Shown here: positions 35,759 through 64,000 of the stretch, in pieces
Position numbering within the stretch: the stretch's first letter is position 1
Layout: every line of letters starts with the position of its first letter
From: Mycobacteroides salmoniphilum
Lineage (GTDB): Bacteria; Actinomycetota; Actinomycetes; Mycobacteriales; Mycobacteriaceae
Length of the DNA: 64,000 bases
Direction of reading: 5' to 3'
Assembly: GCF_004924335.1 (NCBI RefSeq)
Contig: NZ_CP024633.1
Location: 1,798,001-1,862,000 of the forward strand
Notes under the pieces: model-generated
Databases searched by the model: none
Told to the model about the DNA's origin: nothing
Seen by the model: only the letters and a program-made list of their open reading frames with translations
Program-made: the position numbers and the translations under genes

Positions 35759-37876
35759 ATGAGTTCGCACATGGATCACCCCGACCATCCGTCGTCTCAC
35801 CCGCCTGCCGGACCGTGCGAATCGGATGATCACGGCCATGGTCACCATCACGACCATGCGGGTGATGGCAGCGGCCACGGAGGCCACGGAGGCCATGGTG
35901 ACCATGTCGGGCAGTTCCGCAGGTTGTTTTGGATCATGCTGGGGCTCTCCGTACCGGTGGTGGCGTTCAACGACATGTTCGCGATGGTCATCGGCTACCA
36001 ATTGCCGACCACCGGCTGGGTTCCGTGGATCTCGCCGGTTCTCGGCACCGTCATCTACTTCTGGGGCGGCAAACCCTTCCTGGCCGGTGCGGTCGCTGAG
36101 GTGCGGAGTCGCAAGCCGGGAATGATGCTGTTGATCGGGCTGGCGATTACGGTGGCCTTCGTCGCCTCCTGGGGTGCGAGCCTCGGCCTGATTGACCACC
36201 AGCTCAATTTCTGGTGGGAGCTGGCGCTTCTGGTGGTGATCATGCTGCTTGGGCACTGGATCGAGATGCGGTCGCTGGCGCAGACCACATCGGCCCTCGA
36301 CTCCTTGGCAGCGCTGCTGCCCGATAGTGCCGAACGTGTCGAGGGAGACGCGGTGGTGTCTGTCGCACCCGCCGATCTTCGGGTGGGTGACGTCGTTGTG
36401 GTGCGCCCGGGCGGCTCGGTGCCCGCGGACGGTCGAATCACCGAGGGCAGCGCCCATCTGGACGAGTCGATGGTGACGGGGGAGTCACGCGCGGTCCGAC
36501 GTCAGGCCGGCGATCAGGTGGTCGCCGGCACCGTGGCCACCGATTCCGGCCTGCGCGTGGAAGTCACGGCGGTCGGCGACGACACCACACTCGCTGGTAT
36601 CCAGCGTCTGGTCGCCGATGCTCAGGCGTCCAGCTCGCGGGCGCAGCGGATCGCCGATACCGCCGCGGGCTGGTTGTTCTGGTTCGCGCTCGGCGCCGCG
36701 GCGTTGACGGCTGTGGCCTGGACGATTCTGGGGGAGCCCGACACCGCGGTGGTTCGCGTCATCACGGTGCTGGTGATTGCCTGTCCGCATGCGTTGGGTC
36801 TGGCCATTCCACTGGTCGTTTCCATCGCCACCGAGCGCGCGGCCCGGGGCGGGGTCTTAGTGAAAGACCGCTTGGCCCTTGAGCAGATGCGCACCGTCGA
36901 CGTCGTGCTGTTCGACAAGACTGGAACGCTGACCAAGGGTGCGCCCACGGTGACGGGTGTCGAACCCGTCGACGGACGCGATGCCGATGCCGTGCTGGCG
37001 CTGGCCGCCGCGGCCGAGGCCGACAGTGAGCACCCGCTGGCACGCGCCATTGTGGAAGCCGCTCGCGGCCGGGGACTGCGTGTCACTGCCGCCAGTGGCT
37101 TTTCTTCCGAGCCCGCGCTGGGGGTCACCGCGGAGGTCGCGGGTGTCCAGGTCGCGGTCGGTGGGCCTGCGTTGCTGAAAAGGCATGGTGCACAAGAGCT
37201 ACCGATCGCCGAAGGATGGCGTACCGAGGGCGCGATCATCCTGCATGTGTTGATGGATGGGCAGGTCGCGGGCGCACTGCGGTTGGCCGATGACATCCGG
37301 CCGGAGTCCCGGGATACCGTCGAGGCGCTGCACAGACTGGGGGTATCGGTGGTCATGATCACCGGTGACGCGCATGCTGTGGCCAACACGGTGGCGGCCG
37401 AGCTCGGTGTGGATCGGGTGTTCGCTGAGGTGCGGCCCGAGGATAAGGCTTCTGCGGTGGCGCAGTTGCAATCCGAAGGACACACCGTGGCGATGGTCGG
37501 TGACGGTGTCAACGACGCTCCCGCGCTGGCGCAAGCGGATGTGGGGATTGCGATCGGAGCGGGAACCGATGTCGCGATCGCTTCCGCCGGTGTCATTCTG
37601 GGGAGCTCGGATCCACGGTCGGTGCTCTCGGTCATCGAGTTGTCGCGAGCCAGCTATCGCAAGATGAAGCAAAACCTGTGGTGGGCAGCCGGATACAACC
37701 TGATCTCGGTTCCGTTGGCGGCCGGGGTACTCGCCCCGATCGGATTCGTGCTCCCGATGAGCGTAGGGGCCATCTTGATGTCGGCATCCACCGTGGTGGT
37801 CGCGCTCAACGCACAGTTGCTGCGCCGCTTGGATCTTCGCCCGGAACAATCCGTGCGGCGAATCCTCGCGCGTTAG
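35759..37876 (+). CDS. copB: Copper-translocating P-type ATPase, CopB type
   Basis: A P1B-type ATPase, 705 residues from the ATG at 35759, exporting copper from the cytoplasm. The N-terminus is a His/Gly/Asp-rich metal-binding tail instead of HMA domains. The transmembrane metal motif is CPH (Cys342-Pro-His344), which defines the CopB (P1B-3) group. The phosphorylation site is FDKTGTLTKG (Asp386), with SEHPLA as the nucleotide HP motif and VGDGVNDAPAL as the hinge. The start follows the promoter so closely that a leaderless or very short-leader mRNA is likely; ATG 35771 is an alternative. It converges with mbtD and overlaps it by 4 bases. Confidence 0.93.
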   Translation: MSSHMDHPDHPSSHPPAGPCESDDHGHGHHHDHAGDGSGHGGHGGHGDHVGQFRRLFWIMLGLSVPVVAFNDMFAMVIGYQLPTTGWVPWISPVLGTVIYFWGGKPFLAGAVAEVRSRKPGMMLLIGLAITVAFVASWGASLGLIDHQLNFWWELALLVVIMLLGHWIEMRSLAQTTSALDSLAALLPDSAERVEGDAVVSVAPADLRVGDVVVVRPGGSVPADGRITEGSAHLDESMVTGESRAVRRQAGDQVVAGTVATDSGLRVEVTAVGDDTTLAGIQRLVADAQASSSRAQRIADTAAGWLFWFALGAAALTAVAWTILGEPDTAVVRVITVLVIACPHALGLAIPLVVSIATERAARGGVLVKDRLALEQMRTVDVVLFDKTGTLTKGAPTVTGVEPVDGRDADAVLALAAAAEADSEHPLARAIVEAARGRGLRVTAASGFSSEPALGVTAEVAGVQVAVGGPALLKRHGAQELPIAEGWRTEGAIILHVLMDGQVAGALRLADDIRPESRDTVEALHRLGVSVVMITGDAHAVANTVAAELGVDRVFAEVRPEDKASAVAQLQSEGHTVAMVGDGVNDAPALAQADVGIAIGAGTDVAIASAGVILGSSDPRSVLSVIELSRASYRKMKQNLWWAAGYNLISVPLAAGVLAPIGFVLPMSVGAILMSASTVVVALNAQLLRRLDLRPEQSVRRILAR

Positions 37877-40800
37877 TTGCGTTCCGCAACGATGATCCGC
37901 TGATCCAGCATGTGCAACGGGTGACCGGCTTCGGGCAGCACCATCAGCGGCCGGAACCCAGCCTGCGATAGTTCATCGTTCCACTCGCCTTCGGTCAGGA
38001 AAATGCGCTCGCCCGCGCGGATATCGGATTGCCCTGGATGCGTCTGGCCGGGTGCTGCAGACATGAGGAACTTCAGGGACGTCAGCACCTGGTAGTTCGC
38101 GTTGCACGTCTCGATGAACACGATGGCGCCATCGGGATTGATGACGTCGTGAAGCTGGCGCAGGCTGTGCCCGATGTGCGTGGCGTTGTGGATGACATTC
38201 GCCCCCAACACGATGTCGTACCGTTCAGCGCCCGACAGGTCGGTGTTGAGGTTCATCAACCCGTAACGCAGCTGCGGGTTATTGGCGAACCGTTCCTGCG
38301 CCGCCGCGAGGAAGAACGTCGACACGTCGGTGAAGTGGTAGTCCACGGGAAGCCCGGATAGACCGGCGATTACCTCATCAGTTGTGCCGCCGATACCCGC
38401 GCCAAGCTCGAGGATCCGCACCGGTGAGCGGTCGCGCTGTAGGCGGGCCACCATGTTCGAGACGGTCTCGCGGGCAGCGAGATTGAGATAGCGGCTAATG
38501 AGATTCTCGCGATAGCCGGCTTCAGCGGTCAGCATATCCCCGTCGGGGAACAGCAGTTCTTGTACGCGCGCGCGGTCTTGTCCGAGTTCCAGGAGGCGGT
38601 TGTTGCATTTCTCCATGAACTCGACCAGCTCGCTTCGGTAACCGAGATCCTGGCACACATCCAGCAGTCGCGCCCGAGTTGGTGCGGGAAGAGGACGGTC
38701 GAGTCGGTATCCATGATCGGGGTGGTGACTCAGGTGTCCATGCGAGGTGAGCACTTCAAGCCATCGGTTGAGAAGCCACCGATGGCGTGGGGTGAAGCTC
38801 AGCCGGTCGGCGATATCGGCCGCCGAATGAGCAGCACCGTCCTGCAGCGCCGGCCTCAACACGGCCATCATCGCGTGCATCCCGAACAGGTCTAGATCAT
38901 CACGGGCAGAGTGCATAACATCCAGATTCAGGACGCTTGGCATTGCCTTCTCGGCGGTGGCCCGGGCGCGCTGGGTGATGTCATCGAGGGTAATCGGCTC
39001 CGCCGGACGCGCGCTGGCCCGCTGTCCTGCGGGTGGGGAAGCTTTCTGCTCAAGTGTCGCGATGATGTCGTTAATCGACGCCCCGCCGAGTAGATCGGAA
39101 ACCTCCAGTTCGTAGTCGAACTCAGCCTTGACGCGGCGACGGAACTCCAATGCCTGCAATGAATCAACGCCCAGGGCAACCATCGCTGCGGTGGTGTCGA
39201 TGGTGTCGGCCTGGTCGGCGCCGATGACCTCGGCAAGTAGCGAAATCAGGTCGCGAGGTGGTCGGCCGCCGCTGGAAGCATGGTGAGTGGGTGCTTCTGG
39301 TGTGGCCTCTGTGATGTTCTGCGCCAGCTCGGACAGCGCAGATCCGTGTCCAAACGCATTGAGTGTCGCGTATCCGCGCGCCCAGTCGAAGTCGGCGACG
39401 ATGGCGTTCTGCCGTAGTCCATTCATTCCTAAACGGATGGCTTCGGCGGAATTCATTGGGCGGTAGCCCAACCCGCCTAGGCGTTCAAGATCTGAGGAAT
39501 CCCGGCCCTCGAATACGTCCCACTGGCCCCACTGCACCGAAACACAGTCGACACCTGCCGCGCGGTACCTGGTGGCAAGGCTATCGATCATCCGGTTGGC
39601 CGCGGCGTACAGTAGCATGCCGCGCCCGCCAAGCGTCGCCGCCAATGACGAGAACAACACCACGCGGCAACTGCTTTCGCGGGCGAAGGAACTCAGTAGG
39701 TTCGGTAGCCCGAGGACTTTGCCTCGGAATGCCTCGACGACGGTCTCGGCCTTGATGGCGCGCAGATCCAATTCAACGGTGCTCGAAAAATCTGCGGCCG
39801 CATGTGCGATGAGGTCAACCGGGTGGGCGAGTTCGTCGGCGAGGCGAGCCATTGCGGCAGCGTCGCCGACATCGCAGGTGGCGACGGTGACAACACACGT
39901 CGACGCCTTTCTGATCAGTGCGAGACGCTCTGTGATGGAAGGGGTTTCGCCCGACCTACTCAACAAGGTGATGTGCTGGGCGCCGGCTTGAGAGTAGTGC
40001 TCGCACAGTTCCAGTCCGAGTGCCCCGGTGCCTCCGGTGATGAGAACATGCGCTGGGTTCCCGGCGGCGTCGAACTCTAAAGGATCGGCCAGACGCAGAC
40101 GTTTGACATGAAGTACCCCGTCCCGTAGGGCAAGTTCGGATTCCCCTCCAGTCATCAGCGCCATGAAGACGGCACGGGCGGTACCGCCTTGCGCGTCGTC
40201 GTGGCCAAGATCCAGATGCCGGAACGTCACGCTCGGATGATCCATGGCGAGGGTGCGGTACCCGGCGCTGATCGCCGCATGCACCGGGTTCGGCGGGAGA
40301 TCGCTGGAGGTGACGGACTCGCCTCCCACCGTAACGATCCAGCAATCGCTCACCAATTTCGAGAGCGGTGGCAGCCAGCTACCACCTGCGAAGAACTTTG
40401 ATACCGCTGTGACAGAATCTATTTCATCCGTCTCCGGCATAGCGGGAACGACTATCACCAAGGACTGCGTATCCTCGGCGACCTCGCCAGCGACAACCAG
40501 ATGCAGCGGCACTCCCTGGTCCTCCGCTTCGACCTGCAATGCAGATACGAGTTGTGCGCAGTCACCGGTGGGGTCGACCACACTGAAGGGCCGAGCAGGC
40601 CGAAGTGAGCGCTGCGTCAGCCGAACCCACTCTTCCAGGACTACCTGCGCGCCAGGTTCGCGGCGCGGCTCCGCGTGTACCGGTATGGATTGTGTAGACG
40701 ACGCCACCTGTTCTGCACGGTTATTTCTAGTTTCGTTGTAGGGCAACCACAACCGGATGTCATTGGTAGGGGCGTTCGGGAAATCCCGGAGAGGGAGCGC

Positions 40801-42177
40801 GAACTTAACCGGTGGTTCTGCGCGCAGGTTTTCCCATCCGTATCCGGGGGTGTTCACCGCAATGGCGGCGAGGTTCATGGTGAACTCGTCAAGGTTGGTG
40901 GCGGCGCGGGTTGAGGTTCCGACTACCGACGTGACCCGGTCGCCGGCTGCCGCAGCGCAGTTCTCTTGAACCGCAAGCTGCAATGTGGGGTGTTCGGCCA
41001 GTTCGACGAAGGTGTCGACGCCCTGGGCAAGGGCAGCCGTGATGGCCCGGTCAAACCTGACCGGATTTCGCAGATTTAAGAACCAGTACTGGTCCTGCGG
41101 CAAGTCGGGTGTGATCGCCTCGCCGAGGGTGGCGCCGAAACAGTCGATGGGGGAGTCCTGGAATCTGGCATCGCCGAGGCTGTCTCGTAGCTCTTGACGG
41201 ACCTTGTCGCCGATGGTATTCATCAGGCTGGTATGAGCCGGGTATCGAACCGGAATCACCCGGCTGAAAATACCTTTGGCCGTGAGGTGTTCGACTATTT
41301 CGTGGATGGTTTCCCGGTCTCCGGAAATCCCGGCCATGGAGGCGGAGTTGAGCACTGAGACCTCGGCCCAGCCTGATCGGCGGGCAATGATGTCTTCACA
41401 GGCGTCACGGTCGATCGCCGCGACCGCCATCGCGTAATCGCTGGATCCGAAGGTGTCGACGATCCCGGCACGGATACCAACGACCGCGACGGCATCGGTC
41501 AGGGGCACAGTGCCTGACACGTATGCGGCCGCTATTTCACCCTGGCTGTGACCGATCGTGACATCCGGTGTGACACCGGACGAACGCCACATTGCCGCGA
41601 GTGCGGCCATCTGGGTGAACAGCGCGGGCTGAACGGTGCTTGCGCCGGCATCTGCCGGCACACTGTCGTCGAGGAGATAGCTCAGGGGTGACTGCCCGAA
41701 CCGCGTCTCGAAAAGCGCGGCACACCGGTCGGCTTCGGTCCGGTACGCCTCGACTGCGTCATAGAAGACGCGGCCCATACCGGGACGCTGACCGCCTTGT
41801 CCGGGGAACACAAAACCAACGCGTTGAGCATCGGCGCTCAGTGCGCCATGTACGACCGCGGGGTGGTTGCGGTCATCGGCGACCGCACGTAGCGCTGACA
41901 GCAGACCTTCGTGATCGCTGACGGCCAGGATGGTTCGGTGGCGTCTGGGCACCCGGGTGCGAAAGAGCATGTCCGCGAACCGCGCTGGTGGCACTGTTGG
42001 GTGCTCTAGTGCGTATGCCAAGAGTCCGGCGGCTTCGGCCCGGACCAGTTCGGCGCTTTCGCTTGTCAGCAGGATCGGGATCGCGCCATTGGGAAATCGG
42101 TGACTAGAAATCGTCGCCGTCCTCTCTCTCGTTGGCCTCTGCAGGCATCGCGATGATGGCGTGTGCGTTGGCTCCAC
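37873..42177 (-). CDS. mbtD: MbtD-like polyketide synthase: AT-KR-ACP plus C-terminal methyltransferase
   Basis: A modular PKS, about 1434 residues. An acyltransferase (about 118-410) has GHSQGE near 211 and RYPAHTS at the specificity loop. The ketoreductase (about 700-900) has LITGGTGALG, FSSLA and LYAAAN. The acyl carrier (about 970-1040) has LGVDSLQ near 1005. Beyond the usual MbtD end there is a further domain of about 350 residues with winged-helix-like start and SAM motif ILELGAGIGG near 1257. With MbtC it should make the beta-hydroxyacyl unit of the siderophore and, in addition, methylate it. It is the third gene of the minus-strand arm. No ATG is well placed: I prefer GTG 42177 (74-base overlap with mbtC); the frame opens at 42249. 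Confidence 0.88.
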   Translation of the reverse strand: MEPTHTPSSRCLQRPTRERTATISSHRFPNGAIPILLTSESAELVRAEAAGLLAYALEHPTVPPARFADMLFRTRVPRRHRTILAVSDHEGLLSALRAVADDRNHPAVVHGALSADAQRVGFVFPGQGGQRPGMGRVFYDAVEAYRTEADRCAALFETRFGQSPLSYLLDDSVPADAGASTVQPALFTQMAALAAMWRSSGVTPDVTIGHSQGEIAAAYVSGTVPLTDAVAVVGIRAGIVDTFGSSDYAMAVAAIDRDACEDIIARRSGWAEVSVLNSASMAGISGDRETIHEIVEHLTAKGIFSRVIPVRYPAHTSLMNTIGDKVRQELRDSLGDARFQDSPIDCFGATLGEAITPDLPQDQYWFLNLRNPVRFDRAITAALAQGVDTFVELAEHPTLQLAVQENCAAAAGDRVTSVVGTSTRAATNLDEFTMNLAAIAVNTPGYGWENLRAEPPVKFALPLRDFPNAPTNDIRLWLPYNETRNNRAEQVASSTQSIPVHAEPRREPGAQVVLEEWVRLTQRSLRPARPFSVVDPTGDCAQLVSALQVEAEDQGVPLHLVVAGEVAEDTQSLVIVVPAMPETDEIDSVTAVSKFFAGGSWLPPLSKLVSDCWIVTVGGESVTSSDLPPNPVHAAISAGYRTLAMDHPSVTFRHLDLGHDDAQGGTARAVFMALMTGGESELALRDGVLHVKRLRLADPLEFDAAGNPAHVLITGGTGALGLELCEHYSQAGAQHITLLSRSGETPSITERLALIRKASTCVVTVATCDVGDAAAMARLADELAHPVDLIAHAAADFSSTVELDLRAIKAETVVEAFRGKVLGLPNLLSSFARESSCRVVLFSSLAATLGGRGMLLYAAANRMIDSLATRYRAAGVDCVSVQWGQWDVFEGRDSSDLERLGGLGYRPMNSAEAIRLGMNGLRQNAIVADFDWARGYATLNAFGHGSALSELAQNITEATPEAPTHHASSGGRPPRDLISLLAEVIGADQADTIDTTAAMVALGVDSLQALEFRRRVKAEFDYELEVSDLLGGASINDIIATLEQKASPPAGQRASARPAEPITLDDITQRARATAEKAMPSVLNLDVMHSARDDLDLFGMHAMMAVLRPALQDGAAHSAADIADRLSFTPRHRWLLNRWLEVLTSHGHLSHHPDHGYRLDRPLPAPTRARLLDVCQDLGYRSELVEFMEKCNNRLLELGQDRARVQELLFPDGDMLTAEAGYRENLISRYLNLAARETVSNMVARLQRDRSPVRILELGAGIGGTTDEVIAGLSGLPVDYHFTDVSTFFLAAAQERFANNPQLRYGLMNLNTDLSGAERYDIVLGANVIHNATHIGHSLRQLHDVINPDGAIVFIETCNANYQVLTSLKFLMSAAPGQTHPGQSDIRAGERIFLTEGEWNDELSQAGFRPLMVLPEAGHPLHMLDQRIIVAERN

Positions 42178-43462
42178 CGGCCCCGAATGATGAGACCGCG
42201 CCGTAGCGGATGCCATTCGTGGGCTCCCAGGGGTGCAGTTTGGTGGCAAGGCGCAGGCCGGTAAGGCTCCAGTCGACCTTGGTGGAAGGGTTGTCCGCGA
42301 AGAGTGTTGGGGGGATATGTCCGTATTGCCCGGACAGCAGGAGCTTGATCAGACCGACCATCCCTGCGGCGGCTTGGGCATGCCCAATGTTCGACTTGGA
42401 AGAACCCAGCAGTGCGTGAGATCCCCCGGCGCCATATGTGCTTTGAAGTGCCATGAGCTCCAACGGATCTCCGGCGCGGGTGGCGGTGCCGTGCCCTTCG
42501 ACCATGCCGATCAGGGCTGGGTCGACTCCAGCGGCGGCGATAGTGGCGGCAACGAGTTTGGCTTGGGCGCGGCCACGTGGCACCAGGATGGGCTTGCCTT
42601 TCCCGTTGTGATTCGTGCGGATGGCCAGGATTCGGCCATAAATGTGGTGTCCCAGTGCACGAGCGCGCGACTCCTTCTCTACCACAACGACTCCGACGGC
42701 TTCACCCCATAGGGTTCCACTGGCGTCATCCGCGTAGGAACGGCAGTGTCCGTCGGATGACAGCGCGTGCAGCTTGGCGAATTCGTAGAACCCGCCTGGT
42801 GACCCCATGACACACACCCCGCCGGCCAAGGCCCATTCGCACTCATCGGCGCGCACCGCCGACGCGGCGAGGTGCAATGCCGACAACGACGATGCGCACG
42901 CTGAATCGACACACATGGAGGGGCCGGTCAACCCGAGTAGGTGCGATACGCGCCCCGCCACACCAAGTTGTCCGAGCCCGACGATGCGATGGCCGCTGTG
43001 CGCGTTCACCTCACCAGCCCTGGGGCCATATTCGTTGGGGGATACCCCGATGAAAACCGCGGCTTCCTCGCCGTCGATCAAACCAGGGTTGATGCCGGCG
43101 TTCTCGAGGGCTTTCCACGCGACGCGCATTCCGACGCGTTGCTGTGGGTCCATGGCGATGGCCTCGCGCTGGGTGATGCCGAAGAATCCGGGATCGAATG
43201 ATGCCGCGTCCGTGAGAAATCCGCCGGCATCGCATATGTCTCCCCACCCGTCGAGCTGCGATACCGATAGCAAATCCTCGAGAGGCCAGCCGCGGTCACG
43301 GGGGAACGGGCCGACGAGCTCTCGACCGTCGGCCAACGCGGTCCAGAAAGCGGCGGGCGTGGTGATGCCTTGCGGCGCCTCGATCGCGATTCCGGATATG
43401 ACGATGGGATCAGTTTCCGCAGATTCTGTGCGATGACGCGGTGTCGTCACGGCGTCGCTCAT
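42104..43462 (-). CDS. mbtC: MbtC-like beta-ketoacyl synthase
   Basis: A stand-alone ketosynthase of 452 residues, equal in size to M. tuberculosis MbtC. It condenses an acyl starter with malonyl-type extender on MbtD. The active-site Cys lies in VDSACASSL near residue 186, the His residues in EGHGTAT and KSNIGHAQAAAG, and the start motif is DPIVISGIAIEAP. The ATG overlaps the stop of the thioesterase gene (ATGA), so mbtT-mbtC-mbtD are translationally coupled. A split KS and AT-KR-ACP is characteristic of mycobactin and nocobactin pathways. Confidence 0.92.
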   Translation of the reverse strand: MSDAVTTPRHRTESAETDPIVISGIAIEAPQGITTPAAFWTALADGRELVGPFPRDRGWPLEDLLSVSQLDGWGDICDAGGFLTDAASFDPGFFGITQREAIAMDPQQRVGMRVAWKALENAGINPGLIDGEEAAVFIGVSPNEYGPRAGEVNAHSGHRIVGLGQLGVAGRVSHLLGLTGPSMCVDSACASSLSALHLAASAVRADECEWALAGGVCVMGSPGGFYEFAKLHALSSDGHCRSYADDASGTLWGEAVGVVVVEKESRARALGHHIYGRILAIRTNHNGKGKPILVPRGRAQAKLVAATIAAAGVDPALIGMVEGHGTATRAGDPLELMALQSTYGAGGSHALLGSSKSNIGHAQAAAGMVGLIKLLLSGQYGHIPPTLFADNPSTKVDWSLTGLRLATKLHPWEPTNGIRYGAVSSFGAGGANAHAIIAMPAEANEREDGDDF

Positions 43463-44223: not shown

Positions 44224-44253
44224 GTGCGGCAACCCTTCGAACTTTGTTGGTAG

Positions 44254-44272
44254 TTAGATAAGCCTAACGTAA
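44254..44272. promoter_or_regulatory. IdeR-type iron box 1 (mbtT side)
   Basis: TTAGATAAGCCTAACGTAA matches the IdeR consensus (TTAGGTTAGSCTAACCTAA) at 16 of 19 positions. It lies just upstream of mbtT, where a bound repressor would cover the promoter. IdeR-Fe represses siderophore genes in mycobacteria when iron is sufficient. Confidence 0.85.
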
Positions 44273-44372
44273 CCTCGAGTCCCGTTGTGCGCTCGTACCG
44301 GCGGTTGCGGCGACGGCCCGGCGCACACGCTCGGCTGCGATAGGGAGGTCCGTCCGTCCTGCAGGCAGGTAT

Positions 44373-44391
44373 TAAGGTAAGGCTAGGCATA
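44373..44391. promoter_or_regulatory. IdeR-type iron box 2 (mbtE side)
   Basis: TAAGGTAAGGCTAGGCATA matches the IdeR consensus at 13 of 19 positions, with a good left half. It is 56 bases before the mbtE start and probably controls the plus-strand arm. It is weaker than the box on the mbtT side. Confidence 0.6.
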
Positions 44392-44446
44392 GTCCCTCCA
44401 AAATTACTGTCGAGGTGTTTCTTTTTCATGTTGTTGTTCCTATGGG

Positions 44447-49498: not shown

Positions 49499-52400
49499 CG
49501 GGCGTGGGCCAGGTGGCGCCGAAGATTGAGGATGTGCTGGCGTTAAGCCCTTTGCAGGAAGGCTTTTTCGCCCTCGCTCAATTGGCCGACGAGAGTGTGG
49601 ACCTGTACTCCATGCAGTTCGTGGTCGACATCGAAGGCGCCTTGGATGTCGACTTGCTGCACCGCAGTGCGCAGGCGATGCTTACCCGGTATCCGAATCT
49701 ACGCGCATCGTTTTGGGATCAAGGGGTGCCGAAACCAGTTCAGATCGTGCCGGTCCATGCTGAACTTCCCTGGGAAGAGCTCAGCGCCCGGCCGGCGGAC
49801 TTGGACGCCATCGCACGCCAGGAACGGCTTCGTCCGTTTGATCTCAGCAAGGGGCCTGCGGTCCGCAGCGTGGTGGTGTCGGTGCTCGGCGAGTCGCGTC
49901 ACCGTTTGATCGTGACGGCCCATCACATTCTGATGGACGGTTGGTCATTCGGCGTCTACTTCTCCGAACTGTTAGCCGCCTATCAGGCCGGTGGCTCCAT
50001 CGACGGATTGCCGGCCGTCCGCTCCTACCGTGATTACATCGCGTGGCTCGCGACACAGGACACCACGGCGGCCGCCGCACAATGGGCCACGTACCTGGAC
50101 AAGGCCTCCGGGCCGCTGATGCTCGCCAACGGCGGCGTGTCGGCACACGATGGTGTGCCAGAGAAGCACCGGTTCGAGCTATCGCCGCAGGAGACGTCGG
50201 CCTTGCGAAAGTGGGCTGGCAGTAACGGATTTACGCTGAACACTGCTGTCATGTTCGCGTGGTCGCTGGTGCTGGGGCGGTTAAGCGACCGTCGCGACGT
50301 GGTGTTCGGCACCATTGTCTCTGGAAGGCCCGCGCATCTGGCGGGAGTGGAGAAGATGGTCGGTCTGTTCATCAACGCCGTCCCGGTGGTTCACGTCGTA
50401 GACCCTGCAGTCTCCGTTGTGGAGCAATGTGGCCGATTGCAACGGGAGACGTCGGCCATGCGCGATGTCGGGTACTTGAGCTTGTCGGCTTTGCAGCGCG
50501 CCCAAGGTGGGGCGGCGCTATTCGACACCATGTTCGTGTTTGAGAATGCTCCGCTTGACGACGCGGTTAATGAGGTCGTGACTGCCGACGGTGTGCGATT
50601 CCGGCCGGTGGAGGGGGAGAGTCTGGCGCACTACCCGTTGACGGTGGTGTCGCATATGTACGGTGAGTCACTCTTAGTGGTGATTGAAGCTATTGCCGAA
50701 GCGCTGCCGTACTTTTCGGCTGAGGATATCGGGGAGCGCCTAGTCTCCGTGCTGCGTCAGCTACCGAACATCGGAACCCGGACCGCCGGCAGCATTGACG
50801 TCCTTACTCCACGGGAACGAGCCCATGTTGGCGCTGTGTACCGCGATTTCACTGAATTGCCACAGTCGGTCTGGGAGCTATTCGAGCATCAAGTCAGTCG
50901 GGAGCCCTCGGCGACCGCTCTGACCGCAGAGGCCGGGCAAGGGCTCACCTACGCACAGTTGCACGAGCGGGCCTGCCGTCTGGCCGCTGAGCTGGCCGAG
51001 CACGGTGTGGGTCCGGAAGTGTCAGTGGCACTGCTCCTTCCGCGTTCGGTTGATTCAATCATCGCCGTCCTCGCGGTGCTGGCAGCAGGTGGCGCTTACG
51101 TCCCGGTAGATATTTCATTGCCCGCTGCCCGTATCGAATCGATTATCCAACAGTCGAACCCGGCGGTTGTCATCACCAATTTGGGATGTCAGGAAAAAGT
51201 GCAGTTCGCCTGTCGGGCGGTTGTGCTCGATGATCCTGTCGCCGTGGAGCGAGTTTCCATGCGGCGCGCGATCGCCCCCAATGTCCGTCGACATCGGGAT
51301 CAAATTGCCTACATGATCTTCACGTCAGGTTCCACCGGCGTGCCGAAGGGGGTTATCGGGACTCATCGTGCGCTGCTGAGCTACTTCGCCGACCACCGCG
51401 ACCGGGTGTACGGCCCGGCGACCGCTCGTCTGGGCCGCCGCCTGCGAATCGCGCACGCGTGGTCACTGAGTTTCGATGCTTCCTGGCAGCCGATGATGGG
51501 CCTGTTCGATGGCCACGCGGTGCACCTTTTCGGAGCGGAGGAGATGCGGGATGCGCGCCGCTTGGTGCAAGGCATGCTCGATCACGACGTCGACATGATC
51601 GACACCACGCCGTCCATGCTGGCACAGCTGTCTTCGGCAGGACTTCTCGACCGTTCAATCCCGGTGCTCGCGCTCGGCGGTGAGGCAATTGATACGGCGC
51701 TGTGGAACCGGTTGAGAGCACTGGCTGGCACTGATGTCTATAACTGCTACGGGCCCACCGAAACAACAGTTGAAGCAGTGGTGGCAGAAGTGAAGAATTT
51801 CTTATCGCCGACTATCGGGACACCGAACAAGGGTATGGCCGGCTATGTCCTTGATTCGGCGCTACGTCCGCTGCCAGACGGCGCGGTCGGTGAGCTGTAT
51901 CTGGCGGGACCACAGCTTGCGCGGGGCTACGCGGGTAAGCCTGCATTGACCGCCGGCGCCTTCGTGGCTGACCCCTTGCAGCCTGGACATCGGATGTACC
52001 GAACGGGCGATCTGGTGCGGCGGCTGCCGCACGGTGGATTCGCCTATCTGGGCCGTGCCGATAGTCAGGTGAAGATCCGTGGGTATCGCGTGGAGGTTGG
52101 CGAGATCGAATCGGCGCTGCGCTGCCTGCCGGGTGTGGAGACCGCCGCGGTGAGTGTGGTGCGTCGCGCGGGAGGCGCCAGCCTCGTTGGTTTTGTTGTG
52201 CACCAACACGATACGTTTGAGCCCGAGCGTGCGATGCTCGCGCTCGCGGATCGCCTGCCCTCCTACATGCTTCCTGCTCGCCTCGTCGTGTTGTCTCAAC
52301 TGCCCGTTACGGTGAACGGCAAACTGGATGCCGATGTTATTGACCGGCTGGCCGCTGATGCACTGGCAGGCGCCGCGGGGGACGGTGAATCGGCTCCGCC

Positions 52401-54033
52401 GACAACCGTCACTGAGCACACGCTGAGCGAGTGCTTCGCCGAGCTATTTGACGGCACGCCACCGGGTATCGACGCCGACTTCTTCTCGCTCGGCGTGGAC
52501 AGCATCGTGGCGATTTCACTGGTCAACAAGGCTCGCAAGCGTGAGGTGCCGATTACCCCACGCATGGTGCTCGCTGCCCCCACGATCCGCCAGCTGGCCG
52601 CTCTTGTTGATTCCCGCGGGCGCCTGGAATCGATTGCGGGGAAGGCCGATTATGGGCCTGTACCACCGCTGCCAATTGTTTCATGGCTACATGAGAGCGG
52701 GGAGTACCGCCGGTTTGCCCTATCGGTGTTGGTGCGTCTTCCGGACGGCATCGACCGAGAGTCAATAGCACAGGTTTTGCAGCCGATACTGGACGGGCAC
52801 GACATGCTGCGGTCGCTATTGGTTGACACCCCGGAGGGCCCACGTATCGTGACGCGCGAGCCCGGGGTAGTGCGCGCCGACAGCGTTATCACGCGTGTGG
52901 AGCTGCCTGCGGACGAGCAGGCCGTGACTCTCGCGGTGACGGCGGCTGCACGCGCTGCGCTCGACGACTTGGACCCCTACTCGGGCTCCATGTTCCGGGC
53001 GGTGTGGCTTGTCACTCCGGGCATGGATGATGCGCTACTGCTATGCGCTCACCACCTTGCCGTTGATGTCGTTTCCTGGCATATCCTGCTTGCCAATCTT
53101 GCCGACGCGTGGCGTACTGCCCAAGCGGGCGGAGTTCCAAAGGCTCCGGTGGAATTCACGTCGTACCGCCATTGGAGCCAGTTGATGGCCGAGCGCGCGG
53201 CTGGCGATGAGGTTCAGGAGCAATATGGTTACTGGGCAGCGCAAGTCGCGGGTACGGACCCTGCTTTGGGCTCGCGGCATCCGGATCGCGACTGCGACAC
53301 CTGGGCGACCTTGCGAAACATGATGGTGACCACGCCCGTGGATATCACCGCGCGCCTGCTTGCCGCGATGGGGAAGAACGACGGTGTGTACGGATTCCTG
53401 ATTGCCGCGCTGGCCGTGACCGTGGCGAGCTGGAGAATTGAGCGTGGCCAGGACGCCGGTGCGGGCACGTTGATCGCTGTCGAAAGACACGGCCGAATGG
53501 ACGATGAGTTGGAAGCTGACACCACGGGCACGGTTGGTTGGTTCACCTCAATGTTCCCCGCTCGCGTTGGCGCCGGGAGCCTGGGGGTCGGCGTCGGCGA
53601 GGCGGAACGCGACTATGACGCGGCGCGGGCCGTGCTGGCTAGCGTTGCGCAGCACCTCGCGGAGATTCCCAACCAGGGAATGGATTACGGCCTGTTGCGC
53701 TATGCAGATGGGCGTGGTGTTCTCAGTGACGCGCCTGACCCTCAGATTCAGTTCAACTATTTGGGGCGTATGGACAGGAGCGGCATCACCGACGAAGCGT
53801 GGTCCCTGGTGACTGACGTGCGGCATCTCGCGTTGCCCGCCGATTCCGAACCGAACCTCGCATTGCGATTTGCGACCAATATCTCTGTTGCGGTGATGTC
53901 GACGCCGGAGGGTCCGCAGTTACTTGCAAATTGGCAGTGGAGCTCGGCACTTTTCACGCAGAACGACGCTGATCGGCTAGCGGAGCTATGGCAACGCAGC
54001 GTCGCTGCGCTCGCGGTCGCGGCTGAGCTATAG
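49495..54033 (+). CDS. mbtF: MbtF-like NRPS: C-A-PCP-E
   Basis: A terminal NRPS module of about 1512 residues. The C domain has TAHHILMDGWSFG. The adenylation domain has FTSGSTGVPKG, NCYGPTETT and YRTGDLVRR. The PCP carries LGVDSIV (Ser about 1003), the variant typical before E domains. The last domain has HHLAVDVVSWH, ERHGR and TVGWFTSMFPARV, the hallmarks of an epimerisation domain. In mycobactin synthesis MbtF adds the second lysine, which cyclises to the caprolactam. I prefer the GTG at 49495, which overlaps the mbtE stop (GTGA); a GTG at 49480 is in frame. No thioesterase domain is present. Confidence 0.9.
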   Translation: MTGVGQVAPKIEDVLALSPLQEGFFALAQLADESVDLYSMQFVVDIEGALDVDLLHRSAQAMLTRYPNLRASFWDQGVPKPVQIVPVHAELPWEELSARPADLDAIARQERLRPFDLSKGPAVRSVVVSVLGESRHRLIVTAHHILMDGWSFGVYFSELLAAYQAGGSIDGLPAVRSYRDYIAWLATQDTTAAAAQWATYLDKASGPLMLANGGVSAHDGVPEKHRFELSPQETSALRKWAGSNGFTLNTAVMFAWSLVLGRLSDRRDVVFGTIVSGRPAHLAGVEKMVGLFINAVPVVHVVDPAVSVVEQCGRLQRETSAMRDVGYLSLSALQRAQGGAALFDTMFVFENAPLDDAVNEVVTADGVRFRPVEGESLAHYPLTVVSHMYGESLLVVIEAIAEALPYFSAEDIGERLVSVLRQLPNIGTRTAGSIDVLTPRERAHVGAVYRDFTELPQSVWELFEHQVSREPSATALTAEAGQGLTYAQLHERACRLAAELAEHGVGPEVSVALLLPRSVDSIIAVLAVLAAGGAYVPVDISLPAARIESIIQQSNPAVVITNLGCQEKVQFACRAVVLDDPVAVERVSMRRAIAPNVRRHRDQIAYMIFTSGSTGVPKGVIGTHRALLSYFADHRDRVYGPATARLGRRLRIAHAWSLSFDASWQPMMGLFDGHAVHLFGAEEMRDARRLVQGMLDHDVDMIDTTPSMLAQLSSAGLLDRSIPVLALGGEAIDTALWNRLRALAGTDVYNCYGPTETTVEAVVAEVKNFLSPTIGTPNKGMAGYVLDSALRPLPDGAVGELYLAGPQLARGYAGKPALTAGAFVADPLQPGHRMYRTGDLVRRLPHGGFAYLGRADSQVKIRGYRVEVGEIESALRCLPGVETAAVSVVRRAGGASLVGFVVHQHDTFEPERAMLALADRLPSYMLPARLVVLSQLPVTVNGKLDADVIDRLAADALAGAAGDGESAPPTTVTEHTLSECFAELFDGTPPGIDADFFSLGVDSIVAISLVNKARKREVPITPRMVLAAPTIRQLAALVDSRGRLESIAGKADYGPVPPLPIVSWLHESGEYRRFALSVLVRLPDGIDRESIAQVLQPILDGHDMLRSLLVDTPEGPRIVTREPGVVRADSVITRVELPADEQAVTLAVTAAARAALDDLDPYSGSMFRAVWLVTPGMDDALLLCAHHLAVDVVSWHILLANLADAWRTAQAGGVPKAPVEFTSYRHWSQLMAERAAGDEVQEQYGYWAAQVAGTDPALGSRHPDRDCDTWATLRNMMVTTPVDITARLLAAMGKNDGVYGFLIAALAVTVASWRIERGQDAGAGTLIAVERHGRMDDELEADTTGTVGWFTSMFPARVGAGSLGVGVGEAERDYDAARAVLASVAQHLAEIPNQGMDYGLLRYADGRGVLSDAPDPQIQFNYLGRMDRSGITDEAWSLVTDVRHLALPADSEPNLALRFATNISVAVMSTPEGPQLLANWQWSSALFTQNDADRLAELWQRSVAALAVAAEL

Positions 54034-54046
54034 CAAGGACGACAAC

Positions 54047-57000
54047 ATGGATATCAGCAGGGATGAGATCAGGTCGACGATTGCCGAGCTCGTCGGGCTT
54101 ATGCCCGCGGAGATCTCGGATGCAGATGACCTCATTATGTTGGGGCTCGACTCGATCCGGATGATGACGCTGGCAGGCGGCTGGCGTAAGCGCGGTAGTG
54201 GTATCACCTTCGCGCAGCTAGCTGCATCCCCCTCGGTCGCATCGTGGCATGAGTTGCTCGATGGTGGAGAAACAGGGCCCACCGTCGAGGCCGTCCAGCC
54301 TGGACTGGCCGTGTCTGACGTGGAAGAAGCCCCTTTCCCATTGGCCACGATGCAGCACGCGTACTGGATCGGCCGTTCGGAGGATCAGGAGCTCGGTGGC
54401 GTCGCGGCGCACCTGTACGTCGAGTTCGATGGTGGAGCAATCGATGCCGAGCGGCTACGGCTGGCGGTCGACCGGCTTGTGGCGGCACACCCCATGCTGC
54501 GCACCAGGTTTCTGCCCGACGGCACCCAACAGACCTTGTCCATCCCGGGGCGCGATGTGTTCAGTGTGGTGGACCTGCGTGGACATGCGGGTGCGGAGGT
54601 TGAGGCGGCACTGACCGAGCTCCGTGAGCGCAAGACGCATCAGCGCCTGGCGATCGAGGACGGTCAGGTGCTCGACGTCACGCTGACCTTGCGCGACGAG
54701 ACGAGTAGCCGGCTGCATCTGGACGTGGACATGCTGGCCGGGGATGCGATGAGCTACCGGGTGCTGGTGTCCGATCTGGCTGATCTGTATCACGGTGCCG
54801 CACAACCGGAATTGGGATACACCTACCGGCGGTATCGCACCGAGGAGCGCGGCGATGAGCCGGCGCGTGAACGTGATCGTCAATGGTGGAGCGAGCGGTT
54901 GGAGGACCTGCCGGGTGCGCCGGAGCTGCCCACCGTGCCGGTGAGTGAACGAACCGAACCACATCGCACCGTCCGATACGACTACTGGCTTGAACCGCGG
55001 GCCAAGCAGCAGCTGCTGGCTGCCGCACATCAGCGCGGAATCACCCCCGCGATGGCGATGGCCGCGGTCTTCGCCGAAACCATCGGCGGGTGGTCCGCGC
55101 AAAGTCGCTTCCTGCTGAATGTCCCTTTGTTCCATCGTGAATCGGTGCACCCTGATATCGACCGGGTGATCGGTGATTTCACCTCCTCGATCATGCTCGA
55201 CGTCGATCTGACCGACCAGATGTCGGTGGCCGACCGGGCCCGCGCCCTGCAACGCAGCATGTACGAGAGCGGGGCGCATTCGGCGTATCCGGGGCTCAAT
55301 GTGCTCCGTGACCTAGGCAGGCACCGCGGTGAGCCGGTATTGGCGCCGGTTGTGTACACCAGCGCGCTGAATCTGGGGGAGCTGTTCGCTACGTCGGTGA
55401 TCGAGACCTTTGGCGAACCGGTCTGGATCATTTCCCAAGGGCCGCAGGTGCTGTTGGATGCGCAGGTCACTGAGGTACGAGGCGGCCTGCTGCTCAACTG
55501 GGACGTGCGTGAATCGGCTTTCCCGGACGGCATGGTCGACACCATGTTCGCGCGCTACACCGATGCGGTGGCCGCGCTCTGCGCCGGTGACGACGGCTGG
55601 AATGCCGATGCCGCCGTGCGGCTTCCGGCCTCGCAGGCCGAGGTCAGACGAACCGTCAATGCGACCGGCGGCCCGGTCACCGGCCGGCGCCTGCATGAAG
55701 GCTTCTTCGATTTCGCGAAGACGCACCCCGGCGCATCCGCGGTGGTGTGGGGCTTCGGTGACGAGGACGGGGTATGGACTTACGGCGACCTGGCCGCACA
55801 GGCCTTGGCCGTGGCCGGTGCGCTGCGCGCAGGTGGCGTTCAGCCCGGCGATGCGGTCGCGGTGCAGCTGCCCAAGGGGCGCGATCAGATTCTGGCCGTG
55901 CTCGGTGTGCTCGCGGCGGGCGCCGTGTACGTACCCATCGGGTTCGATCAGCCGGCACAGCGCCGTGCCGCGATTCTTGAAACCGGCGGAATTACACTGG
56001 CTTTGACGGCACCGACCGCAGCTGGTTCCGATATGCCCATCGACCAGCTGCCAGTCGACGCGGCCCGCCAGTACCAGGAACCTCTTGAGGCCCCGGTGCT
56101 GCCCGACGCTTCACAGATCGCCTACGTTCTTTTCACATCCGGGTCTACCGGTACGCCGAAGGGCGTTGACGTCTCACACGCGGCCGCGATGAACACCATC
56201 GACGCGTTGAACGATGAGTTCGGGGTCGTCTCCTCCGACCGTGCGCTCGGGTTGTCGGCGCTCGAGTTCGACCTGTCGGTGTACGACATCTTTGGCATGT
56301 TCTCGGTGGGTGCCGCGGTCGTTGCCGTCGATGCCGCCCAGCGTGCCGAGGCGACCACCTGGGTGGAGTTACTACGGCGCCATCGAGTTTCGATAATCAA
56401 TTGCGTGCCCGGCCTGCTGGACATGATCTTGGAGATCGGCGGCAGCGAGCTAGGCGATTCGTTGCGTGCGGTCATCCTCGGTGGTGACTGGGTGAGTGCG
56501 GACCTGGCGCGCAGGCTCGCGGCTCAGGTCCGAGGCTGCCGCTTCACCGGCCTCGGTGGGGCGACCGAGGCTGCTATCCACAGCACGATTTGCGAGGTGG
56601 TGGGCGACCCGCCCGAGCGCTGGGCGACGGTTCCTTTCGGCGTGCCACTGCGCAATGTGCGGTGCCGGGTCGTCTCGCAGGCCGGTCGCGACTGCCTCGA
56701 CTGGGTGCCGGGTGAGCTATGGATTGGTGGCGACAGTGTCGCGGCCGGATACCGCAACGACCCCGAGCGCACCGCGCAGCGATTCGTCGAGTACGACGGG
56801 TTGCGCTGGTATCGAACGGGCGATATGGCGCGATACTGGCCCGACGGAACCGTTGAATTCCTGGGCCGCGCCGACCATCAGGTGAAAATCCGGGGCTACC
56901 GGGTGGAACTGGGCGAGGTCGAAAGCGCGCTGCGTCTCGTGCCGGGTGTGCGTCACGCGGTCGCCGCCATTGTCGGCGGTGATGCACCGAATCTTGTTGC

Positions 57001-57517
57001 CGCGGTCGTGAGTACCCCAGATGGTTCTGTTGATTACGCGGCACTGCTCGGTGACCTGCTCCCGGGCTACATGATCCCAACCCGGATTGAACTTCTTGAG
57101 CACATGCCGTTGACGTCTAACGGGAAAATGGATCGACGTGCGGTGACGGCGCTACTGGAGCAGGCGAGCACCATGAGCGCCGGCTCGGGGCCGCGACACG
57201 ATCTCGATGCGGCCCTGGTCGACCTGGCGGCAGGAGTCCTGGGTGTGGAATCCATTGGTGTGCACGATGATTTCTTCGCCCAGGGTGGAGACTCGGTGCT
57301 GGCGACGGCGGTCATCGCGCGCGTGCGCGATTGGCTGTCGGTCGATCACGCTCTCGTCGGGGACTTCTTCGCCACTCGCACCATAGCCGGGCTCGCCGAT
57401 CGGTTGTTGAAACGAGAGGCCGAAAACGGAACTCCAGACCGGCTGGCCGTGGTCGCGGGGCACTACCTGGAAATCGCGGCGATGACCGATGAGGAGATCC
57501 TGGCCGGCACCACCTGA
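54047..57517 (+). CDS. mbtB: MbtB-like NRPS: ArCP-Cy-A-PCP
   Basis: A 1156-residue NRPS that accepts salicylate and makes the hydroxyphenyl-oxazoline. The N-terminal aryl carrier has LGLDSI (Ser36). The Cy domain has DMLAGDAMS (Asp228, Asp233, Ser236), the DxxxxDxxS cyclisation motif. The adenylation domain (about 530-1020) has FTSGSTGTPKG, FDLSVYDIFG, LGGATEAAIHS and YRTGDMARY; my hand-read pocket is DLYNIGLIHK, closest to threonine. The PCP carries GGDSVL (Ser1083). M. tuberculosis MbtB (about 1414 residues) has an extra C-terminal thioesterase, absent here; the separate mbtT may replace it. The 13-base gap to mbtF supports one operon. Confidence 0.92.
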   Translation: MDISRDEIRSTIAELVGLMPAEISDADDLIMLGLDSIRMMTLAGGWRKRGSGITFAQLAASPSVASWHELLDGGETGPTVEAVQPGLAVSDVEEAPFPLATMQHAYWIGRSEDQELGGVAAHLYVEFDGGAIDAERLRLAVDRLVAAHPMLRTRFLPDGTQQTLSIPGRDVFSVVDLRGHAGAEVEAALTELRERKTHQRLAIEDGQVLDVTLTLRDETSSRLHLDVDMLAGDAMSYRVLVSDLADLYHGAAQPELGYTYRRYRTEERGDEPARERDRQWWSERLEDLPGAPELPTVPVSERTEPHRTVRYDYWLEPRAKQQLLAAAHQRGITPAMAMAAVFAETIGGWSAQSRFLLNVPLFHRESVHPDIDRVIGDFTSSIMLDVDLTDQMSVADRARALQRSMYESGAHSAYPGLNVLRDLGRHRGEPVLAPVVYTSALNLGELFATSVIETFGEPVWIISQGPQVLLDAQVTEVRGGLLLNWDVRESAFPDGMVDTMFARYTDAVAALCAGDDGWNADAAVRLPASQAEVRRTVNATGGPVTGRRLHEGFFDFAKTHPGASAVVWGFGDEDGVWTYGDLAAQALAVAGALRAGGVQPGDAVAVQLPKGRDQILAVLGVLAAGAVYVPIGFDQPAQRRAAILETGGITLALTAPTAAGSDMPIDQLPVDAARQYQEPLEAPVLPDASQIAYVLFTSGSTGTPKGVDVSHAAAMNTIDALNDEFGVVSSDRALGLSALEFDLSVYDIFGMFSVGAAVVAVDAAQRAEATTWVELLRRHRVSIINCVPGLLDMILEIGGSELGDSLRAVILGGDWVSADLARRLAAQVRGCRFTGLGGATEAAIHSTICEVVGDPPERWATVPFGVPLRNVRCRVVSQAGRDCLDWVPGELWIGGDSVAAGYRNDPERTAQRFVEYDGLRWYRTGDMARYWPDGTVEFLGRADHQVKIRGYRVELGEVESALRLVPGVRHAVAAIVGGDAPNLVAAVVSTPDGSVDYAALLGDLLPGYMIPTRIELLEHMPLTSNGKMDRRAVTALLEQASTMSAGSGPRHDLDAALVDLAAGVLGVESIGVHDDFFAQGGDSVLATAVIARVRDWLSVDHALVGDFFATRTIAGLADRLLKREAENGTPDRLAVVAGHYLEIAAMTDEEILAGTT

Positions 57518-57521
57518 CCGG

Positions 57522-58901
57522 TCAGGAAGACGCGGGCGTACCCAGCACCATGCTGCCCACGCTGCACTCCTGTAGCTCCGGGACGGCCGCGGCCGCGGTG
57601 AAGGCTGCGGTATCGCCGAATCCCTGGGCGCATGCGCCCAGCCCCATGGCAGTGGCGGCCAGGTAGATGGTCTGCATGAGTACGCCGACGTGCTTGAGGA
57701 TGGCCGAGTAGGCGACCTGCTCGTAGGTCCACATCACCCGCCCGGCGCGTGCGCCCATCACCAGCAGCACCTGTGGTTCGGCGCCCCCCTCCAGCGTCGC
57801 GGAGGTCGATTTCAGCAGCTGCTTGACCGCGGTGGAGTCGGCGTCGGCCACCGGCCGTAGAACATGCTCAAAGGAGTCGTAGTGGTACATGCCCGGTGCG
57901 AGTCCGGCGACGTTGCGCGCCACCGGATACAGCTCCAGCTCGTACACGCTGCCACCCGAGGGATACGGACGGGACAGGAGTTCTTCGCCTTCGCTTTCCG
58001 AGCGGACGCCACGGGTACGAGCCGTGCGATACAGGAGCTCGGAAAGCTGTTCGATGGTGATGGGGTTGGCGTCATCGAAGGCGCGCACCGAGACCCGGTC
58101 CTCGATCACCGTGGTGAGGGTCGGATCCCCGGCGCGTAGGGCCGCCAGATCCGGGGCCGGTAGCGCGACCGGGCTTCCCGGATAGTCGGGTTTTCGTGCA
58201 GCCGGCTGCGGGAACTTGCCCTTCGCCCATTTCGTGGGACCGAAGTGGTCCCAGGTGATGGTGCGTTCCCCCAGGGTGCTGCGTCGGTGGAACCACAGGT
58301 CCGATGCGCTCCAGCTGACGGAGGGGAACTCGTGGTTTTCCTCGTCGCTGTTGGAGACGACGAATCCGCCCCAGCGCAGATCGGCCTGGAATCGCGCGAT
58401 GAGATCCTCACCCAGGTCGGCGCCGGCGCGTCCGGGGCCGCCGAGCAGGGGGAGCAGACGGAGATCGTGGATGCGGATATCGCACCAGCTCAGCGGATTT
58501 TCCAGCACGTATCCACGTGAATCGCGATGCAGTACGGAGAATTTGGACAGATGGACGCCCGATGATGCGGCATCCGTGGGTTGAGGGGCGGGGACACCGA
58601 AGCACTCGACGGCATAGAGGTCGTGTTTGTCGTCTCGGACCTTCAGCGACAGCCATCCGCCTTCGAGTAGCCGCGCGATGAGTGCCTCGATGGCGTCGCT
58701 ATCGGCATCGGTTATCAGTTCCGCGAACGTCGAGGGGCCGCTGTTGAGAGTCTTCAGTACGCGCCGCTGCTGCTGTGAGAGCCCGGTGAGTTTCTCGTTG
58801 CGCGGTGGGTTCAGGAGTATCGCGCCCGCGGCTGTGACGAGGCACGTTGCGCCGTCGCGTAGGGCGAACCGGGTTCCGGCGGGGTAGGTGAGAGCGGACA
58901 A
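57522..58901 (-). CDS. SagB-type FMN-dependent azoline oxidase
   Basis: A 459-residue protein. The N-terminal half (about 1-220) has a winged-helix-like segment (LTGLSQQQRRVLKTLNSG) as in SagB proteins. The C-terminal half is a nitroreductase-fold FMN domain: DRVSVRAFDDANPIT, SGGSVYELELYPV, GMYHYDSFEHVLRPV and KHVGVLMQTIYLAATAMGLGACAQG. Such enzymes oxidise thiazolines or oxazolines to thiazoles or oxazoles. No precursor peptide, YcaO or E1-like gene is nearby. The only likely substrate is the oxazoline made by MbtB, whose gene converges with 4 bases between stops. It probably makes the siderophore ring an oxazole. A candidate iron box lies upstream at 58973. Confidence 0.82.
   Translation of the reverse strand: MSALTYPAGTRFALRDGATCLVTAAGAILLNPPRNEKLTGLSQQQRRVLKTLNSGPSTFAELITDADSDAIEALIARLLEGGWLSLKVRDDKHDLYAVECFGVPAPQPTDAASSGVHLSKFSVLHRDSRGYVLENPLSWCDIRIHDLRLLPLLGGPGRAGADLGEDLIARFQADLRWGGFVVSNSDEENHEFPSVSWSASDLWFHRRSTLGERTITWDHFGPTKWAKGKFPQPAARKPDYPGSPVALPAPDLAALRAGDPTLTTVIEDRVSVRAFDDANPITIEQLSELLYRTARTRGVRSESEGEELLSRPYPSGGSVYELELYPVARNVAGLAPGMYHYDSFEHVLRPVADADSTAVKQLLKSTSATLEGGAEPQVLLVMGARAGRVMWTYEQVAYSAILKHVGVLMQTIYLAATAMGLGACAQGFGDTAAFTAAAAVPELQECSVGSMVLGTPASS

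Positions 58902-61478: not shown

Positions 61479-64000
<2,522 letters not shown>

Follow-up and report, generated by a model that had tools for sequence, protein, structure and literature searches.

Which siderophore is made by the locus at positions 37873-58901 of the DNA analysed here, and how did the locus acquire its present form? The DNA, called the window below, is a stretch of 64,000 nucleotides (C1:1798001-1862000) from Mycobacteroides salmoniphilum, whose closed genome of 4,776,697 bases is one contig. The locus has a thioesterase gene (mbtT), a ketosynthase gene (mbtC) and a polyketide synthase (PKS) gene (mbtD) divergent from three non-ribosomal peptide synthetase (NRPS) genes (mbtE, mbtF and mbtB), and a convergent gene for an azoline oxidase (sagB). 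In our view the locus is reasonably likely to be cluster I of an iron-regulated pathway of the nocobactin/formobactin type that is divided over two loci, and in which the core genes and the carrier domain of MbtB have been swapped as one block. The siderophore is probably chemically different from those of the closest relatives.

The middle of the locus, about 16.5 kb, has been replaced by a divergent allele, and both edges can be located. The DNA identity to the nearest relative (genome G169) is 90-100% just outside the block and about 40-75% inside it, as followed in a 500-base profile and in 50-base steps. In the latter the identity at the left edge (37850-37900) is 0.90-0.98 until 37,850 and 0.36-0.52 from 37,900, and at the right edge (about 54345) it is 0.46-0.84 until 54,350 and then 0.94-1.00. 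The right edge lies within mbtB, at the junction between the aryl carrier protein (ArCP) and cyclisation (Cy) domains near codon 100, and residues 1-78 of MbtB are 75% identical to G169 as against 97.3% for residues 100-1156. The GC content is 0.622 in 37869-54050 compared with 0.658 and 0.652 in the remainder of the window on either side.

Comparisons of the encoded proteins with eight relatives show that MbtD is 52-53% identical to theirs, which are 75-97% identical to each other. The corresponding figures are 77-79% (82-99% among the relatives) for the ketosynthase (KS), 60-63% (78-99%) for the thioesterase (TE), 65-67% (78-99%) for MbtE and 69-70% (83-99%) for MbtF. Outside the block or at its edge they are 84-95% (82-99%) for MbtB and 85-94% (83-97%) for SagB. 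As a control, the NRPS of cluster II is 79-90% identical to the same eight relatives. For a P-type ATPase the identity is 87-96% in seven of the eight (tblastn; G298 was not reached). A ninth relative (L014) gives 69% for MbtF and 96% for SagB, its MbtD being outside the view. The methyltransferase (MT) domain of MbtD is absent from all eight relatives compared. In phylogenetic trees (FastTree, local support values) the window falls outside the eight relatives for MbtF and MbtD and inside them for SagB and MbtB; eight rows matching another NRPS (non-orthologues) were set aside from the MbtB tree. The exchange may have occurred by homologous recombination with a lineage bearing the C-methyltransferase (C-MT) form, as one block of about 16.5 kb from mbtD, mbtC and mbtT through mbtE and mbtF to the MbtB carrier.

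An earlier reading of this DNA (the sequence-only reading) had mbtT-mbtC-mbtD diverging from mbtE-mbtF-mbtB and an additional MT domain in MbtD. The order, strands and domains are borne out by open reading frames (ORFs) and Pfam families, and the MT domain also by its fold. The domain set KS, AT-KR-T, C-A-T-C-T, C-A-T-E and T-Cy-A-T, as described for nocobactin-type assembly lines (PMC7413640), is complete, and the active-site motifs are as expected in the KS, TE, acyltransferase (AT), ketoreductase (KR), carrier, Cy (DMLAGDAMS) and MT domains. In MbtF, Pfam recognises the epimerisation (E) domain as a second Condensation-family domain, and E was assigned from the motifs NYLGR and HHLAVD. The nearest solved structure to MbtB is 7emy, dihydroaeruginoic acid synthetase. 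The database protein P0001, which bears the name 'nocobactin polyketide synthase NbtC [Mycobacteroides salmoniphilum]', is 98% identical to MbtD. The start of MbtD is uncertain, the ORF having 1458 amino acids and the database protein 1391.

In the proposed pathway, salicylate from MbtI would be activated by MbtA onto the carrier of MbtB, and MbtB would add and cyclise threonine or serine to give a phenyl-oxazoline, which SagB would oxidise to an oxazole. MbtE would add N-hydroxylysine. An acyl starter would be extended with methylmalonyl by the KS and MbtD, reduced and C-methylated, and the resulting alpha,alpha-dimethyl-beta-hydroxy acid would be attached via an ester. MbtF would add the last lysine and epimerise it, with closure of the caprolactam.

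In an AlphaFold2 model (mean pLDDT 77, from 10 sequences) the MT domain has the fold and S-adenosylmethionine motif of polyketide C-MTs. Its best folds in the PDB are the CurJ, AprA MT2, DszA and citrinin C-MTs (TMq 0.72-0.80), and a sequence-profile search gives the same C-MTs. A C-MT takes the place of methylmalonyl in many polyketide synthases, which speaks for an alternative where the AT domain loads malonyl and the MT installs the sole alpha-methyl group in a single methylation; the AT specificity, like those of the adenylation (A) domains, was read from motifs only. This alternative is unlikely, though it deserves to be taken seriously. The AT motif GHSQG is found in 120 of 120 related PKS, as in the window, and YPAH, also as in the window, in 118 of 120. 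The latter comprise 90 of 90 long (MT-length) proteins and 28 of 30 short ones, the two without it being short (1017 and 1033 amino acids), so that the motif is the same with and without the MT. The AT motifs equal those of MT-free relatives, and methylmalonyl together with a C-MT would give a gem-dimethyl group. Methylmalonyl-CoA figures in the published description of how nocobactin NA is made, and there is a precedent in the MT-bearing Nocardia gamkensis, whose mass spectrometry matched formobactin, with a methyloxazole and a gem-dimethyl group (PMC7413640). A gem-dimethyl acid, as in formobactin, appears likelier than one with a single methyl. The sequence-only reading, by its wording, implies a single methylation; with the AT motif unchanged, the MT of the replaced block predicts a gem-dimethyl rather than a mono-methyl acid.

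NbtC forms bearing a C-MT occur in Nocardia, where PMC7413640 (section 9) names subfamilies VI and VIII; the locus of N. gamkensis, a member of subfamily VII, has the C-MT as well. SagB and the MT do co-occur in Nocardia: of the six SagB loci with MbtD in view, five have the MT and one (L036) lacks it. Among 396 genomes SagB was found in 45 (E <= 1e-60) and the MT in 8 (E <= 1e-50), with only the window's genome common to both; since an overlap of 0.9 is expected by chance, this is no statistical evidence. Another locus (L118, genome G033) has the same TE-KS-PKS(MT) / NRPS-NRPS order and an MT that is 63% identical. Its MbtB-like gene is 48% identical, lies on the opposite strand and has the code DLLHPGLIHK, and that genome gave no SagB match at E <= 1e-60.

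SagB scores 147.8 bits against TIGR03605 (cut-off 78.4) and can be aligned with the cyanobactin oxidase CyaGox along 410 residues (nearest structure 5lq4/8pz5), which places it among the SagB/ThcOx azoline dehydrogenases. In 35 of the 37 SagB loci found, from Nocardia, Mycobacterium, Mycobacteroides and Gordonia records, no more than 10 kb separates the gene from these siderophore NRPS genes, and the linkage is more than chance. The sequence-only reading had joined sagB to the locus; the adjacency stands, but sagB and mbtB are tail-to-tail with 4 bases between the stop codons, and sagB is therefore outside the mbtB operon. It is improbable, in our view, that SagB is idle or acts on another substrate and that the siderophore retains its oxazoline. 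Such an outcome would fit the convergent sagB, for which the best upstream iron-box match has 7 mismatches and is equalled by 2.3% of random stretches, as well as the two loci in which no such NRPS gene is found up to 10 kb from sagB. It would also fit the available text on the M. abscessus siderophore, which lists two unusual features, an oxazole not among them (PMC9505556). The linkage in 35 of 37 loci argues against it, as does the association of oxazole with SagB in metabolomic data from Nocardia (PMC7413640). SagB relatives in Nocardia shimofusensis (L045) and N. higoensis (L047) have no such siderophore genes within 10 kb.

The pocket code of MbtB, DLYNIGLIHK, has N, I, G and H in common with a textbook threonine code. 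The sequence-only reading called the pocket threonine-like; as the code departs at two of ten positions from DAYNTGLIHK, threonine, and with it a methyl on the ring, is a possible assignment alongside serine. The code of the window is found in 32 of 104 rows, including the window and M. abscessus (P0245), and DAYNTGLIHK, the code of Nocardia farcinica (P0277) and N. gamkensis, in 62 of 104; 17 of 120 proteins of 1250 amino acids or more were dropped from this count. The codes DILHPGLIHK, DILHPGLTHK and DMLNLGLVHK presumably belong to classical MbtB, and three further rows of the seven were dropped as misread. Against G310, G190, G088 and G092, MbtB shows a second mosaic within the clade: the identity in 50-residue steps is 45-86% over residues 651-900 (window 55994-56746), as against 82-100% over residues 101-650. 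The pocket code switches from DLYNI to DAYNT together with this mosaic.

The MbtD tree (82 of 120 listed proteins, the window and eight relatives, with the MT left out) groups the window and P0001 with the MT-bearing P0002 (support 100) and P0003/P0004 (92), and the MT-bearing group adjoins an MT-free group. Of two proteins that carry the name M. salmoniphilum, P0003 and P0100, one has the MT and the other lacks it; a single species name thus covers different core alleles. The grouping of MT-bearing P0003 and P0004 with the window's allele implies more than one lineage, as would be the case if the block were the older state and other lineages had changed, or if both alleles were old and sorted by chance. 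There is only a small probability of this, because G169 and the seven others have one MT-free allele that holds together as one group in each of the two trees of block proteins, and because both edges are sharp, one of them inside mbtB. An assembly or mixing artefact at the junctions, which are known from the assembly, is very improbable, since the genome is a closed single contig without a detectable second core (next-best MbtF match 36% identical, 21 of 93 candidates scored for the genome), and a 12-member NbtC cluster of M. salmoniphilum, possibly including the window's genome, has a 98% identical representative. The idea that the genome keeps an older core beside this one was likewise rejected, as no such copy was found.

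Features of the siderophore locus in the window (positions are those of the window)
Feature	Position	Strand	Basis
Recombinant block: mbtD-mbtC-mbtT / mbtE-mbtF and mbtB ArCP (first ~100 codons)	37869-54345	.	DNA identity drop against G169
mbtD / nbtC: AT-KR-ACP-C-methyltransferase PKS	37873-42249	-	Pfam PF00698, PF08659, PF00550, PF08242/PF13489
C-methyltransferase domain and N-terminal lid	37876-39000	-	Motifs LELGAGIGG, VIHNAT; stretch used for search and fold
mbtC / nbtB: ketosynthase	42104-43462	-	PF00109, PF02801; motifs ACAS, EGHGT, NIGHA
mbtT: stand-alone thioesterase	43459-44232	-	PF00975; motif GHSMG
IdeR-box-like site between the divergent operons	44254-44272	-	3 mismatches to IdeR-box consensus
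mbtE / nbtD: NRPS C-A-T-C-T, code DAAHPGHVCK	44447-49498	+	Pfam; pocket code read
mbtF / nbtE: NRPS C-A-T-E, code DAQDAGCVEK	49480-54033	+	Pfam; pocket code read
mbtB / nbtF: ArCP-Cy-A-T, chimeric (ArCP donor, Cy-A-T native), code DLYNIGLIHK	54047-57517	+	Pfam
sagB: SagB/ThcOx-type azoline oxidase, convergent with mbtB	57522-58901	-	TIGR03605, PF00881, PF22767

Beyond the locus, an ORF of 794 amino acids at 61554-63938 (-) has no Pfam match and may be the shadow of another frame.

The salicylate genes mbtI and mbtA are outside the window together with mbtG, at C1:1.990-1.999 Mb, about 134 kb off. This second locus (L051/L052) has mbtI (TIGR03494, 567.8 bits against a cut-off of 325.15), a gene for an MbtA-like aryl-AMP ligase (best structures 5kei, 752 bits, and the salicylate-AMP ligase 5wm2), mbtG, a fourth NRPS gene, an LCM methyltransferase gene and irtB/irtA-like genes. 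A salicylate synthase and an aryl-AMP ligase are thus located in a second cluster, as in nocobactin-type pathways. The fourth NRPS (1466 amino acids; A, T and two Condensation-family domains; L052:1645-6045) has HRxxxD in place of HHxxxD in its first condensation domain. Judged from position, its counterpart in M. abscessus is MAB_2248c. A transposon in MAB_2248c slowed growth of M. abscessus most in low iron (PMC9769883).

Control by iron is suggested by iron-box-like sites, scored against an IdeR-box consensus. The score of the site between the divergent operons was reached in 0 of 100 shuffles, and the matching place in all eight relatives has an IdeR-box-like site with 2 mismatches. Besides this mbtT/mbtE site (3 mismatches), sites are found at mbtL (3), irtA (4), mbtI (5) and mbtA/NRPS4 (5), and the five scores are reached by at most 0.7% of random window stretches (300 draws each). 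Iron boxes are reported at mbtT, mbtE, mbtA, mbtE' and mbtI in M. abscessus (PMC9505556).

Some points weigh against the proposed pathway, in addition to the M. abscessus text and the setting of sagB considered above. The MbtB pocket code differs at 2 of 10 positions from DAYNTGLIHK, the code of known methyloxazole makers. MAB_2122-2124 are described as not induced by low iron in M. abscessus (PMC9769883). A cluster-linked N-acetyltransferase (NbtH) or N-formyltransferase (TerH), as expected of the nocobactin type, was not found: neither siderophore locus has a PF13523 acyltransferase or a PF00551 formyltransferase, in a search limited to these two families among the acetyl- and formyltransferases. 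The sole PF13523 gene of the genome is MbtK-like and lies at 3.917 Mb, and the four PF00551 genes are beside neither locus. One formyltransferase gene is adjacent to an NRPS frame of 4036 amino acids (G000:C1:2758111-2770132), possibly an exochelin-like siderophore locus.

The MbtK-like gene belongs to a third locus at about 3.917 Mb (L117 12100-15833) with MbtK-, MbtN- and MbtM-like genes and an acyl carrier protein (ACP)-like ORF, in an order that matches Rv1344-Rv1347c as printed (PMC12003420). MbtK gives 192 bits to Rv1347c (1yk3), and MbtN was found in 6 of 10 genomes searched. The mbt-2 fatty acylation genes (mbtK, L, M and N) of classical mycobactin thus appear, by sequence, to be present; mbtM and mbtN are reported from M. 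salmoniphilum and as absent from M. abscessus (PMC6418233). With mbtKLMN elsewhere in the genome, a fatty N-acyl group is predicted, which nocobactins lack. Tentatively, and with somewhat less than even expectation, recombination may have created a hybrid siderophore with a phenyl-oxazole, a formobactin-like gem-dimethyl hydroxy acid and a mycobactin-like mbt-2 fatty N-acyl chain, with interchangeable core alleles splitting M. salmoniphilum strains into chemotypes. No description of such a hybrid for mycobacteria was found in the literature searched. If this is true, one natural module swap between close relatives alters the methylation of the siderophore backbone. It would offer a near-isogenic test of a C-MT placed after the carrier protein in this assembly line, of oxazole formation by SagB in mycobacteria and of the cross-strain use of an iron chelate. 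A further implication is that siderophore alleles should be typed within a named mycobacterial species before the species is given one structure.

Loci of this nocobactin-like kind occur throughout the clade, and one has been described before from M. abscessus, which makes a nocardial-like mycobactin (PMC9505556). Its MBT Ab locus (MAB_2119c-2124 and MAB_2245-2248; PMC9505556, PMC9769883) likewise comprises mbtT, mbtC, mbtD, mbtE, mbtF and mbtB, while mbtI, mbtA and mbtE' are in a second locus, and the species shares a SagB homologue (P0126) and the MbtB code with the window. M. abscessus is described as lacking mbtL, mbtM and mbtN (PMC10667711), whereas similar genes are present in the window's genome.

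The formobactin-type cluster of N. gamkensis (nocobactin subfamily VII) resembles the window in its combination of SagB (69% identical) with an MT-bearing NbtC (51%) and has NbtF (75%) in the same 21-kb stretch (L023). Its gene order and MbtB code are different, and its subfamily has the N-formyltransferase TerH (PMC7413640), with none linked in the window's genome by the PF00551 search. The nocobactin NA clusters of N. farcinica share the domain set given above, and there, too, the salicylate genes belong to a separate cluster, at a distance of 180 kb; the available text describes no C-MT for nbt, and the acetyltransferase NbtH found there (PMC7413640) has no linked counterpart here in the PF13523 search. 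The likeness to M. tuberculosis is in mbt-2, with MbtK, MbtN, MbtM and the ACP-like ORF. The mbt-1 locus (Rv2377c-Rv2386c; PMC12003420) differs in order and domain content from the divergent TE-KS-PKS / NRPS arrangement with mbtI, mbtA and mbtG elsewhere. MbtF shares 59-60% identity with its counterparts from four further genomes of the genus, as against 43-46% with other MbtF-like proteins, presumed classical; one genome (G006) has an MbtF linked to SagB (60%) as well as another MbtF-like gene (43%).

The resemblance to the nbt cluster noted in the sequence-only reading holds: the layout is that of the nocobactin assembly line as published (PMC7413640). Its nocobactin-like chelator agrees with the layout, the MbtF identities and the SagB linkage; the MbtD and MbtF trees place the locus with mycobacterial relatives. 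A recent import of the locus from Nocardia was rejected because the MbtF tree, and the named rows of the MbtD tree, group with Mycobacteroides and other mycobacteria. No recognisable paper on the siderophore structure of M. salmoniphilum or on exchange of its core genes was found in the literature searched, nor an earlier description of the recombinant block, the kind of locus itself being already known. Recombination has been presented as a driver of NRPS diversity (PMC8097286); in comparison, the exchange described here takes in the entire PKS-NRPS core, about 16.5 kb, of a single siderophore locus within one species group.

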